Positions 21,808-27,440 of a DNA stretch of 36,780 nucleotides are shown piece after piece; position 1 is the first letter of the stretch; each line of letters starts with the position of its first letter. The notes beneath the pieces were generated by a model, which saw nothing but the letters and a program-made list of their open reading frames with translations, was not told the origin of the DNA and did no database searches. The translations under genes and the position numbers were made by a program. The stretch spans positions 6,503 to 43,282 of the forward strand of contig JABAZT010000020.1 of the NCBI GenBank assembly GCA_018608565.1. The letters are read 5' to 3'. The stretch comes from Candidatus Altimarinota bacterium. Its GTDB lineage: Bacteria > Patescibacteriota > Gracilibacteria > UBA4473.

Positions 21808-21882
21808 CCCTACAACTATACCATTATTTAGAAAAATTATTTATTTGGTTCATCTTCCCTTTCAAGAGACCAAGAGAAGGTT

Positions 21883-21915
21883 TTATTATTCTGATACTCA
21901 GTTATTCTATTATCA
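21883..21915 (+). repeat. Heptad tract before the helicase gene
   Basis: TTATTCT, GATACTCA, GTTATTCT, ATTATC units end directly before the chosen ATG at 21917. Its position right before a start codon matches the tract at 10540-10590. Confidence 0.45.
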
Positions 21916-21916
21916 A

Positions 21917-24900
21917 ATGCAAAATTTCTCCCAAGCCCTCGACCAACTCAACCCTGCGCAGCAAGAAGCTGCCACCCATCTCTACGGTCCTATGCTCGTC
22001 CTTGCAGGGCCAGGAACAGGTAAAACTCAAGTTCTTACCACCCGCATCGCAAACCTCCTCCAAGCAGAAGTCGGAGCCGAACCTCAAAACATCCTCTGCC
22101 TTACGTTTACCGAATCAGGCGCGGTCGCCATGCGAAAACGACTCATCCAATGGATCGGCCCAGAAGCCTATAGAGTCAGAATTTCCACATTTCATGGATT
22201 TTGTCAGTCAGTTTTAGACGACTATGGAGAGATTTTTCGAGACAAGCTCCAGGACAAAATCGTCGCTGATGACCTCAACAAAGCCCTCATCTACCAAAAA
22301 ACCCTGCAATCCAAAAAATGGAAATACTTCAAACCTCTCTGGGATGAATTTTTTTATCGACGAGATTTCCTCATGGCACTCTCCCAACTCAAACGAGAAC
22401 ACATTGATCCAGAGAGTTTTTTAGAGTTGCTACCAACAGAAGAAGAACAATTTTGGGAAGATCCAAAGAATTTCTACGCCAAAAAATACAAAGAATTTCA
22501 AGCAGGAGATCGAAAACCCGCCGCAGAAAAAAAAATAAAAGACCGAATAGAAAAACTCACTGAATTCACCACACTCTGGAAAGCCTACGAAGACAATCTA
22601 TCTAACGCTGGATTCTATGACTTCGATGACCAGATCAACTGGGTCGTCAACGAACTTAAAAACAACGAAGCCCTTCGATTTGATCTTCAGGAACAATATC
22701 AATGGATCCTCGTCGATGAATACCAGGATACCAACGGATCACAAAACGAAATCCTTTGGTCACTCATAGACGGAATAGAAGAGCCAAATCTATTTGTAGT
22801 AGGAGATGACGACCAATCAATTTATAGATTTCAGGGAGCCTCCATCGCAAACATCACGGAGTTCCAGGCCAAACTCCCCTCCGCCAAAACCGTCAAGCTA
22901 GAGACCAACTACCGATCCGTCCAAGGCGTCCTCGATGCAGCCTACGCCGTAGTTGAACTCAATACCGAACGAGTCGACGCCAATAAAAAATTAACAGCCT
23001 TCTCTCCTCTTGGATCAAGGGGAGATGCTGAAGACAGAGAGGATTCTTCATCAATCATCCACCAATCCGAATTCTTATCTTCCTATACTGAGACGAACTA
23101 TCTCATCCAAACCATTCAACAAAAACTAGCATCAGGAATCCCCGCAGACCAAATCGCAATCCTCGTCCGAAACAACAAAGAAATCGAACACCTAGCACGA
23201 GAACTCCCACGATTTGGGATCGATATCTCCGCACAGATCACTCAGAATATATTTGAAAACCCGAGCGTCAATCTACTCTTACTGATGCTTCGAATCTTTA
23301 GCACCCCAGATCATGATACAGATCTGATGCAGCTTCTTCATGCACCACACCTAGATATACCCAGAGAAAAACTCCTCCAACTTTCACTCCAATCCAATAA
23401 AGAAAGAAAATCCATCCTAGAAATACTATCAGAAAAATATTCTAATAATCCTCCCCTTGAGAAGGTGAATTGTGCGAATAGCACAAGAGAAGCTCCCCTG
23501 GGGGATAAAGGGGAGCTAGAGGGGATTTCCTCTCAAGATCTAGGAGGACTCTTCGCCACATCAGAAGAAAACTCTCTCAACCTTTTCTACCACTTCTTCA
23601 TCACCACTCGTCCAGACTTCTTTCACCTGAGACCTCCAATCCTCGCCGAAAAAGTATTCTACGAATCCGGCCTTGCCCAATATCTTACCAAAACAAGAAA
23701 TTTTTTAGATTTTCATCATATCCGAACCACCATAGATTGGATACGAGAACAAAACGCAACAGACATATATGAGATATTAGAAAAAATAAGCCTTCACCAA
23801 GAACTCAATATTCCTGTCCGCCCAGAACCGCTTCCCACAGATAGAAACGCCATCCAGATAATGACCTCTCATCGAGCCAAAGGACTCGAATTTGAGATCG
23901 TTCTCATCCCAGGGCTTCAAGATGGGAAATGGGGAAATACAAAAAAACGTTCAAACATACCACTTCCACAATTGGGAAATTGTAATAAAGGCGACGATAA
24001 CCAAGAAGAGCGAAGACTTTTTTTCGTAGGACTCACGAGAGCAAAATCAGAAATATTCCTCTCCTACAGCGCATCAGATCCATCCGGAAGAGAAAAAAAT
24101 GTTTCACAGTTCTGGCATGAAATCCCAGAATCAATGGCCACAAAAACAGATACCCAAACACTCGAAACCGAGGCACATCAACTCCTCCCAACTCTCTCTA
24201 CCACTCTATCTTCTACCTCTCAATCTCCGCCTCAATTTACCCAAGAAGAAAAATCAATCCTCACTACTCTCACAGAAAACTACAAATGGTCCGCCTCTAG
24301 TCTCCAAGCATACATAGACTGTCCACGAAGATTTCTCTACCAAAATCTCTACCGTTTCCCAAGAAAATCAAAACCACAAATGGCTCTCGGAACCGCACTC
24401 CATCAAGGACTCGAACGATACTTCCGTCACTATCAAGAAAATTCGATTGATCCTCCCCTTGTGAAAGGGGATCTAGAGGGGATTTCTCCAAACACACTCC
24501 CCTCCTACTCCGTACTCAAGGAAGAATTTATCTATGCACTTCGTGGACAAAATGTGGACAAAAAACTATATGAAGAACTCCTCGAACACGGACTCAAAAT
24601 CAGCCAAATCTACTACGATCAACGAATCCAATCAAACAACTTCCATCCAGATGATTTACTCGAATTCAACTTCGGAAAACTACAACCAGAAATCGACGGA
24701 ATCCGCATCACTGGAAACGCCGACAAAATCTCATGGCTTAATGACGAAAAAACCGTCGCCAAAATCCTCGACTACAAATCCGGTAAACCAAAAGCCATCA
24801 AGCACGGAGAAAACTACTGGCGACAACTGGTATTTTACGACCTACTATCCAAACATACCAAAGGCATAAACTGGACCGTCGATCACTGCGAACTGGAGTT

Positions 24901-25087
24901 CCTCACCCCCGATCCAAAAAACGATCAAATCCAAACTAAATCCTACACCGTCACCCCAGAAGATAGAGAACAAGTCATCTCAGAGCTAAAATCCGCCGAC
25001 ACCGCCATCAAAAACTTCGAATTCCCAATCATAGAAAATCCGAATAACGACGCGGACATAGATTTCTGGAACCATTTTGGAAGTTAA
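21917..25087 (+). CDS. UvrD/PcrA-type superfamily 1 helicase fused to a PD-(D/E)XK nuclease domain, 1,056 aa
   Basis: ATP-driven 3'-5' DNA helicase with a C-terminal nuclease, likely for recombinational repair. Helicase motifs: Q-motif LNPAQQEA, Walker A GPGTGKT (31-37), motif II VDEYQDTN, motif III VVGDDDQSIYRFQGA, motif IV ETNYRS, motif V MTSHRAKGLEFE, motif VI RRLFFVGLTRAK. The nuclease part (about 805-1040) has SASSLQAYIDCPRRFLYQ, GTALHQGLE, GNADKI and ILDYKSGK, so the catalytic His, Asp and D-Y-K residues look intact. Only one Cys is in the CPRRF motif, so an AddB-type Fe-S cluster is unlikely. Start: ATG 21917 places the Q-motif normally; a TTG 24 codons earlier is in frame. Three in-frame palindromic insertions lie at about residues 363-377, 512-538 and 845-857. 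Confidence 0.93.
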   Translation: MQNFSQALDQLNPAQQEAATHLYGPMLVLAGPGTGKTQVLTTRIANLLQAEVGAEPQNILCLTFTESGAVAMRKRLIQWIGPEAYRVRISTFHGFCQSVLDDYGEIFRDKLQDKIVADDLNKALIYQKTLQSKKWKYFKPLWDEFFYRRDFLMALSQLKREHIDPESFLELLPTEEEQFWEDPKNFYAKKYKEFQAGDRKPAAEKKIKDRIEKLTEFTTLWKAYEDNLSNAGFYDFDDQINWVVNELKNNEALRFDLQEQYQWILVDEYQDTNGSQNEILWSLIDGIEEPNLFVVGDDDQSIYRFQGASIANITEFQAKLPSAKTVKLETNYRSVQGVLDAAYAVVELNTERVDANKKLTAFSPLGSRGDAEDREDSSSIIHQSEFLSSYTETNYLIQTIQQKLASGIPADQIAILVRNNKEIEHLARELPRFGIDISAQITQNIFENPSVNLLLLMLRIFSTPDHDTDLMQLLHAPHLDIPREKLLQLSLQSNKERKSILEILSEKYSNNPPLEKVNCANSTREAPLGDKGELEGISSQDLGGLFATSEENSLNLFYHFFITTRPDFFHLRPPILAEKVFYESGLAQYLTKTRNFLDFHHIRTTIDWIREQNATDIYEILEKISLHQELNIPVRPEPLPTDRNAIQIMTSHRAKGLEFEIVLIPGLQDGKWGNTKKRSNIPLPQLGNCNKGDDNQEERRLFFVGLTRAKSEIFLSYSASDPSGREKNVSQFWHEIPESMATKTDTQTLETEAHQLLPTLSTTLSSTSQSPPQFTQEEKSILTTLTENYKWSASSLQAYIDCPRRFLYQNLYRFPRKSKPQMALGTALHQGLERYFRHYQENSIDPPLVKGDLEGISPNTLPSYSVLKEEFIYALRGQNVDKKLYEELLEHGLKISQIYYDQRIQSNNFHPDDLLEFNFGKLQPEIDGIRITGNADKISWLNDEKTVAKILDYKSGKPKAIKHGENYWRQLVFYDLLSKHTKGINWTVDHCELEFLTPDPKNDQIQTKSYTVTPEDREQVISELKSADTAIKNFEFPIIENPNNDADIDFWNHFGS
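23003..23046 (+). repeat. In-frame palindromic element 1 in helicase gene
   Basis: Hairpin CTCCTCTT / AAGGGGAG (23004-23011 and 23017-23024, one G-T pair, 5-nt loop), then a GA-rich tail ending GAGAGGATT. It encodes PLGSRGDAEDREDSS, inserted after the KKLTAF segment where UvrD proteins are usually shorter. It is the most diverged of the three elements in this gene. Confidence 0.6.
23450..23530 (+). repeat. In-frame palindromic element 2 in helicase gene (compound)
   Basis: Starts like element 3 (CCTCCCCTTGAGAAGG). It continues with a perfect 6-bp hairpin TTGTGC-GAATA-GCACAA, then a perfect 8-bp hairpin GCTCCCCT / AGGGGAGC, and the tail CTAGAGGGGATT. It is translated in the helicase frame as NNPPLEKV...APLGDKGELEGISS. 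It looks like two elements nested or joined. Confidence 0.7.
24450..24487 (+). repeat. In-frame palindromic element 3 in helicase gene
   Basis: Perfect hairpin TCCCCTT-GTGA-AAGGGGA (24454-24471), then the tail TCTAGAGGGGATTT. Translated as DPPLVKGDLEGIS. The loop GTGA and arm order match the intergenic copy at 27361-27380. Confidence 0.75.
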
Positions 25088-27246: not shown

Positions 27247-27359
27247 GTATAAAGTATTGTAAACATTATACAAAAAAACCAAAAAATATCAACGTGATAT
27301 TACGCTAAAACAAAAATGAGTAAAAAAGACAGAGCCAAAGCCCTGCCTTAATTTCCATT

Positions 27360-27440
27360 CCCCCTCTTGTGAAAGAGGGGGCTAGGGGGTGATTGCTCTT
27401 CAAGTCTCTCTCCCCATGGGAGAGAGATTTAGAGAGAGGG
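27360..27440 (+). repeat. Two palindromic elements in tandem, intergenic
   Basis: First unit: CCCCTCTT-GTGA-AAGAGGGG (27361-27380), then GCTAGGGGGTGATT. Second unit: a perfect 10-bp stem TCTCTCTCCC / GGGAGAGAGA with loop CAT (27405-27427), then TTTAGAGAGAGGGA. Both copy the layout of the elements inside the helicase gene (hairpin, TAGAG-type joint, G-rich tail). They lie just past the stop codon of the V-ATPase A gene. Confidence 0.7.

Follow-up and report, generated by a model that had tools for sequence, protein, structure and literature searches.

The DNA analyzed here (the window) is a stretch of 36,780 nucleotides from contig JABAZT010000020.1 of a Candidatus Altimarinota bacterium. It carries a large helicase gene, the product of which matches the Pfam families UvrD-helicase (E 5e-61), UvrD_C (E 5.7e-38) and PDDEXK_1 (E 7.2e-19), and in which the original prediction had recognized three palindromic segments, referred to below as elements 1 to 3. 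The coordinates of the gene, of the elements and their parts, and of one further copy of the repeat are summarized in Table 1.

Table 1. Features of the helicase locus; positions are those of the window.
Feature	Position	Strand	Sequence or product	Basis or remark
Host gene	21845..25087	+	1080 aa; UvrD-type helicase with C-terminal PD-(D/E)XK nuclease domain	ORF and Pfam
Insert-spanning helicase peptide (example)			PPLVKGDLEGISPN	
Element 1	23003..23046	+	hairpin CTCCTCTT...AAGGGGAG, no third arm; peptide SPLGSRGDAEDRED	possible decayed remnant
Element 2	23450..23530	+	peptide PPLEKVNCANSTREAPLGDKGELEGIS	long-form repeat copy
Element 2, pyrimidine (5′) arm	23451..23458	+	CTCCCCTT	sequence; pairs with 23508-23515
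Element 2, constant loop module	23459..23507	+	inner hairpin TTGTGC/GCACAA at 23470-23486	RNA folds; module recurs in L151-L156
Element 2, purine arm	23508..23515	+	AAGGGGAG	sequence
Element 2, linker	23516..23518	+	CTA	sequence
Element 2, third arm	23519..23526	+	GAGGGGAT, mirrors the purine arm	all triads formed
Element 3	24451..24486	+	peptide DPPLVKGDLEGIS	standard 36-bp unit
Element 3, hairpin arms	24453-24460 and 24465-24472	+		
Element 3, linker	24473-24475	+	CTA	
Element 3, third arm	24476-24483	+		
Further copy, intergenic	27358..27396	+	CCCCCTCTT/AAGAGGGGG/GGGGGTGAT	other arm subfamily

A covariance model (R1) built on 13 rows of the repeat was used to score the segments. Nine of these rows are copies from the source genome (element 3 included) and four come from other phyla; in each of the latter, one loop base was deleted, which kept the arms in register. 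Element 3, itself one of the 13 training rows, scored 54.4 bits (E 1.3e-16), and the 3′ part of element 2, which lies outside the training set, scored 36.7 bits (E 1.6e-10), in agreement with the predicted positions of both. The 23-nt 3′ parts of these two elements are 96% identical, and within the window the exact 12-mer CTAGAGGGGATT is confined to them; the hairpin pattern TCCCCTTNNNNAAGGGGA has its only mismatch-free match in the window at element 3. The score of element 1 (7.7 bits, E 1.5) is not significant, and no third arm was recognizable beside its hairpin. The claim of three related elements therefore stands for elements 2 and 3 and is unproven for element 1, yet this segment, too, corresponds to a gap in the orthologs, and since it is an insertion relative to the related genes, it may be a decayed copy. 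The intergenic copy listed in Table 1 (29.7 bits, E 4e-8; nine of nine pairs and nine of nine triads) had been overlooked in the original prediction.

In an alignment of helicases from the same family, the sites of all three elements appear as gaps in the orthologous proteins. The helicase copies are all read in the frame PLxKGxLEGI, and the peptides originally assigned to the elements proved to be correct on translation. At the site of element 2, the helicase of the relative G001 (L033) has another palindrome pair instead, composed of CCCCCTTACAAGGGGG and of CCCCCCGCAAGGCGGGGGG, the latter with an AGGGGG tail, which indicates that this loop was either struck repeatedly or contains an old insert that has since diverged. 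The same loop in the helicase of another relative of this family (G006, L035) is occupied by an acetyltransferase-like domain of approx. 170 residues, recognized as GNAT by eye.

The copies of the repeat are composed, in this order, of a pyrimidine arm, a loop, a purine arm, a linker and a third arm, as in CTCCCCTT-GTCA-AAGGGGAG-CTA-GAGGGGAT. The third arm mirrors the purine arm, with T permitted opposite A. A typical unit comprises approx. 36 bp and has 8-nt arms; a loop of 4 nt combined with a linker of 3 nt was found in 41 of 46 copies, most of which have all of their pairs and triads. Several arm subfamilies could be distinguished (CTCCCC, TCCCCC, TCTCCC, CCCTTCC and CCCCCTC types), and in each of them the three arms vary jointly. 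The linkers are diverse (CTA, TTA, TTT, GCA, GTA, TCG and others), and the ends of the unit read TT...ATTT(C).

The joint variation of the arms was evaluated by a permutation in which the linker and third arm were swapped between copies and the register was re-optimized (5000 shuffles). The observed triad fraction was 0.974, as opposed to a mean of 0.806 with exchanged tails, and none of the 5000 shuffles reached the observed value, although this count is not a probability, because the copies share descent. In the more cautious variant, in which each of the 17 distinct purine arms was represented by a single copy, the triad fraction was 0.944 versus a mean of 0.808, and again no shuffle out of 5000 reached it. 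Across these 17 distinct arms, the third arm thus covaries with the stem.

By the order and polarity of its parts, the architecture is, at the level of sequence motif, that of a putative class II purine-motif intrastrand triplex. The ITxF rule for this class (three stems of 6–15 nt, loops of 1–6 nt and at most one mismatch above 7 nt) admits element 3, with one mismatched position (7/8 pairs and 7/8 triads); element 2 exceeds the loop limit with its loop of 49 nt, and element 1 fails, having no third arm. Retention of the third arm would reflect a role of a triple-stranded DNA fold in the spread or persistence of the repeat.

The 49-nt loop of element 2 contains the TTGTGC/GCACAA hairpin and the CTCCCCTGGGGGA palindrome, and it is the latter that gives the appearance of a second copy. 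Element 2, originally described as a compound of two copies, is rather one element, the arms of which surround a constant module of approx. 49 nt. This module is present in seven copies in the source genome, i.e. in element 2 and at six other sites (L151-L156), where it lies within the arms of other subfamilies. The occurrence of the same loop inside different arm sets indicates that the family is modular. The long-form module was found in three of the 60 genomes searched (the source genome and two relatives), all of the same family, and a search of viral contigs with the module gave no matches. The second long form with CTCCCC-type arms, located in a ComF-like gene, reads PPLDKVNCANSTRENPLGDMGELEGVS, compared with PPLEKVNCANSTREAPLGDKGELEGIS in element 2.

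The covariance model (E ≤ 0.05) detected 47 copies in the source genome (1.66 Mb). Two findings had been named as incompatible with inserted DNA elements, namely the lack of further genomic copies and the conservation of the same peptide loops in orthologs; neither was obtained, since numerous copies exist and the loops are absent in relatives. Among 60 genomes (source and relatives), 36 contained copies (E ≤ 0.01), numbering from 1 to 108 per genome, with the maximum in G001, and strong matches (E ≤ 1e-5) were present in 16 of 96 genomes sampled across the phylum. Within the family, some members are rich in copies (G001, G012), and others have none (G013, G014). Moreover, exact 20-mers (AAGGGGAGCTAGAGGGGATT) were identified in MAGs of Thiomicrospira, Denitrovibrio, Agitococcus, Trueperaceae and Dadabacteria, nearly all of them preceded by a matching pyrimidine arm. 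The copies in multiple genomes, together with the 20-mers in other phyla, indicate that the family is neither a product of chance nor private to this lineage. The idea of a family belonging to the lineage alone is not supported, also because the architecture is that of the BoxC/PIT/TM motifs. No Rfam family matched the repeat, long-form copies included.

Many copies of the subfamilies other than CTCCCC, TCCCCC and similar types form intergenic inverted pairs of two arm types. In C11, C12, C24, C26, C33, C34 and C36 of the source genome, the members of such pairs are 40–75 bp apart, and most pairs consist of a TCTCCC-type unit and a CCCTTCC-type or related unit. Comparison of two genomes of one genus (G012 and G018) revealed that the copy-bearing spacers of the former align to shorter spacers of the latter, with junctions blurred at approx. 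70% identity. An empty site was also sought for the E. coli BoxC copy located between tauD and hemB, but in the strains devoid of this copy most of the spacer is replaced, and no clean junction was detected. No clean empty site turned up within the species, and it is the copy number and the gaps in orthologs that suggest that the unit is able to move.

Sixteen of the 47 model hits are located within long ORFs, and UvrC adds one long form. The host products, named from Pfam matches or from sequence, are the helicase (two copies), GltX, a RibF/5-FTHF cyclo-ligase fusion, a prepilin peptidase, a FemAB protein, a flippase, a DegT-type aminotransferase (two copies), RibD, MurC, a hydrolase, the ComF-like protein (a phosphoribosyltransferase by Pfam), an AroA-NUDIX fusion, ValS (two copies) and UvrC. 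The 11 top-scoring copies, with CTCCCC, TCCCCC and similar arms, were all found in ORFs, compared with 5 of the 36 others (Fisher p 2.5e-7, a value that includes the MurC copy); this copy adjoins a run of N, past which the frame is unreliable, and when MurC is left out, 10 of the 11 top-scoring copies are in ORFs. In other genomes, copies were observed in ORFs resembling (by sequence, not Pfam) ValS, LeuS, PrmC, MraY, MnmA, RecG and YggS. In G001, 19 of the 20 best copies examined lie outside long ORFs. In-frame TGA codons are numerous in some genomes of the same class, a trait that points to the Gracilibacteria side of the Patescibacteria.

The elements had been predicted to share one codon phase, and this is true inside the helicase but fails across the genome as a whole. 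Two further sense frames of the unit yield SPC-type peptides (in the RibF/FTHF protein and the aminotransferase) and SPLSKGDLGGF-type peptides (in RibD, MurC, ValS and UvrC), and the unit is read in antisense in GltX (EIPPSPPLTSGE), the prepilin peptidase, AroA-NUDIX and ValS. Between two and four of the six frames of a unit are open, and the TAG of a CTAG linker closes one. Nine of the 11 best copies are in sense and two in antisense orientation (binomial p 0.065). The use of several frames and of the antisense strand indicates that a fixed phase characterizes the segments of the helicase and not the family.

The exact length of an insert could be defined only in GltX, where 12 extra residues, corresponding to a 36-bp unit, are present between conserved motifs whose spacing is constant in 17 relatives. 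At this single exact site, a target duplication of at most 1 bp is possible. Alignments with solved GltX, ValS and RibD proteins contain gaps at the insert positions. ValS was considered as a second site of exact length and rejected, as its loop ranges from 15 to 38 residues among the relatives where it was measured; the host loops of the helicase also vary in length among relatives.

Some of the host proteins have further unusual features. In UvrC (L156, C28), an inserted GNAT domain (Acetyltransf_10, E 6e-12) lies just after the long-form element, and ValS (L119, C12) contains a histidine phosphatase domain (His_Phos_1, E 2.3e-35) within its catalytic domain, across which several relatives of the same family align. 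The two fusion proteins (L094 and L115), in which riboflavin kinase is joined to 5-FTHF cyclo-ligase and EPSP synthase to a NUDIX domain, both carry palindromic units. The FemAB-like protein (L096, C18) includes another peptide of palindrome-like character, SSSPHPLGEGLGERV, possibly derived from a unit with other arms.

Taken together, the helicase segments are very probably short, non-autonomous repeats of the triplex type (BoxC/PIT/TM), which entered genes in frame and are tolerated there. We base this reading on a repeat family of defined architecture whose arms change in concert, on the in-frame copies in core genes, on their absence from orthologs and on the exact 36-bp insertion in GltX. 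In this respect the original prediction, which proposed DNA elements inserted in frame and tolerated as protein loops in the manner of the Rickettsia elements, is upheld by the orthologs without loops and by the many genomic copies.

According to the model that we favor, the unit would land as a discrete piece in permissive gene loops or between genes, probably moved by some factor acting in trans. Landing in an open frame within a permissive loop would add 12 or 13 codons to a protein that keeps working, and the insertion would be nearly neutral for this protein. Survival within genes could then be explained by (i) the addition of a whole number of codons, (ii) the two to four stop-free frames out of six, and (iii) a peptide of proline, glycine and charged residues, which makes a tolerated loop. 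A loop of 4 nt, a linker of 3 nt and five end bases would give a unit of 3n+12 nucleotides for arms of length n, so that changes in the arms would be frame-neutral; the rule is exact for the 36-bp case and suggestive for other arm lengths. The inserts at the ValS loop and at the element 2 site, which differ between genera, fit permissive loops rather than sequence-specific targets, and the way in which the three arms change together suggests recognition or copying of the folded strand itself. A bolder extension of the model, which we put forward as speculation and consider rather unlikely, is that the triplex fold constitutes the unit of selection of a mobile family inhabiting protein genes, whose length is frame-neutral (3n+12), whose arms co-evolve around a constant loop module, and whose copying depends on neither DDE nor Y1 enzymes.

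The other explanations of these segments were weighed against the same observations. REP elements, whose mobility depends on a Y1 tyrosine transposase (TnpA_REP) with single-stranded hairpins as its substrate, resemble the repeat in several ways: they form inverted pairs of short imperfect hairpins, they have in-frame intragenic copies, and they reside in UvrD, Uvr and tRNA synthetase genes; in addition, Y1_Tnp matches were found in 28 of the 60 genomes. However, the only Y1 sequence of the source genome is a remnant of 58 positions with three stops, the copy-richest genome (G001, 108 copies) gave a single weak partial match, and when approx. 1.8–3.4 kb were examined at each of 20 Y1 loci from relatives, only three contained any copy of the repeat. 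Neither a GTAG nor a CGTC tag is conserved at either end of the unit, and the linker varies freely, which makes a RAYT/REP-type element improbable, albeit deserving of consideration. The view expressed in the original prediction, that of a lineage-specific family akin to the Rickettsia palindromic elements and unrelated to other repeats, accounts for the in-frame entry into core genes and for the confinement of the long-form module, among the 60 genomes searched, to three genomes of a single family, but it is weakened by the 20-mers in other phyla, by the strong matches across the phylum and by the architecture shared with E. coli BoxC/TM_ECO, and we regard it as quite improbable.

Transcription terminators or other RNA hairpins lying in genes by chance would explain why the hairpins are G+C-rich, and the intergenic inverted pairs could stop transcription from both sides. 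The in-gene copies are nevertheless located in the middle of ORFs, in both sense and antisense orientation, the covariation of the third arm with the stem is needless for a terminator, and the long-form copies matched no Rfam family, all of which leaves this explanation with very little to recommend it. The recurrence of PLxKGxLEG-like peptides in several proteins might also point to conserved protein loops, selected for the function of the peptide, with the similarity of the DNA being secondary. This interpretation is contradicted by the fact that one DNA unit gives rise to SPCQRG, SPLSKGDLGGF and antisense peptides; furthermore, most other copies lie outside long ORFs and orthologs lack the loops, and we find it scarcely credible.

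The preferred reading, of triplex-type repeats tolerated within genes, invites comparison with the systems described so far. Holder et al. 2015 (PMC4666352), who cite Hoyne et al. 2000, set out how the parts of a class II intrastrand triplex are ordered and oriented, and reported that the TM_ECO repeats, with the BoxC consensus CCCTCNCCC N3-6 GGGNGAGGG N3 GGGNGAGGG, are always intergenic in strain K-12 and have no assigned function. The present repeat shares with BoxC/PIT/TM_ECO the pyrimidine arm, short loop, purine arm, 3-nt linker and mirrored third arm, and also the T opposite A in the latter (GGGTGAGGG versus GGGAGAGGG in TM_ECO, GGGGGTGAT versus AAGAGGGGG here). Both are interspersed, differ in copy number between relatives and form inverted pairs of two types (A+B). 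In contrast to the 9-nt CCCTCNCCC core of BoxC/TM_ECO, the arms here are of 8 nt and end in TT/AA, so that the strict consensus is not matched, and many copies lie in frame within genes, unlike the intergenic copies of K-12. The long form with its constant loop module is a further difference, not mentioned in the accessible sections of PMC4666352.

The Rickettsia palindromic elements (Ogata et al. 2000), as outlined in PMC10969869, are approx. 150 bp long and encode conserved peptides. Like these, the present palindromes occupy in-frame positions in numerous unrelated core genes, where they are tolerated, and are absent from orthologs; they differ in being three-armed units of 36 bp, of which several sense frames and the antisense strand are used. 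As described by Di Nocera et al. 2013 (PMC3733652), intragenic GTAG/CGTC REPs reside in UvrD/Rep helicases, Uvr proteins and tRNA synthetases; these REPs have in common with the repeat both the short in-frame hairpins and the kinds of host, but those REPs are end-tagged and tied to Y1, whereas here neither a tag nor a linked Y1 gene was found. With MITEs, the repeat shares the character of a short, non-autonomous interspersed element able to fuse in frame with genes; it differs from them in having no long terminal inverted repeats, and a target duplication of at most 1 bp is possible at its one exact site, in GltX.

In-frame palindromes were therefore already known (Rickettsia elements and REPs), as was the class of triplex motif (Hoyne et al., Holder et al.). 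What appears to be new is the combination of in-frame triplex units in core genes, one exact unit length, three-arm covariation and a long form. No description of this combination was found in the literature searched, which is weak evidence, as subscription papers lay mostly outside its scope. The lineage supplies insertions that can be counted, a unit length that is exact at one site, and covariation as evidence of selection on the third arm. It is thereby possible to test whether BoxC-like repeats owe their spread to the triplex fold, and how frequently short selfish repeats make protein loops. Triplex-motif repeats, which are reported to be intergenic in E. coli, enter core genes in frame in the present lineage, much as the palindromic elements do in Rickettsia.
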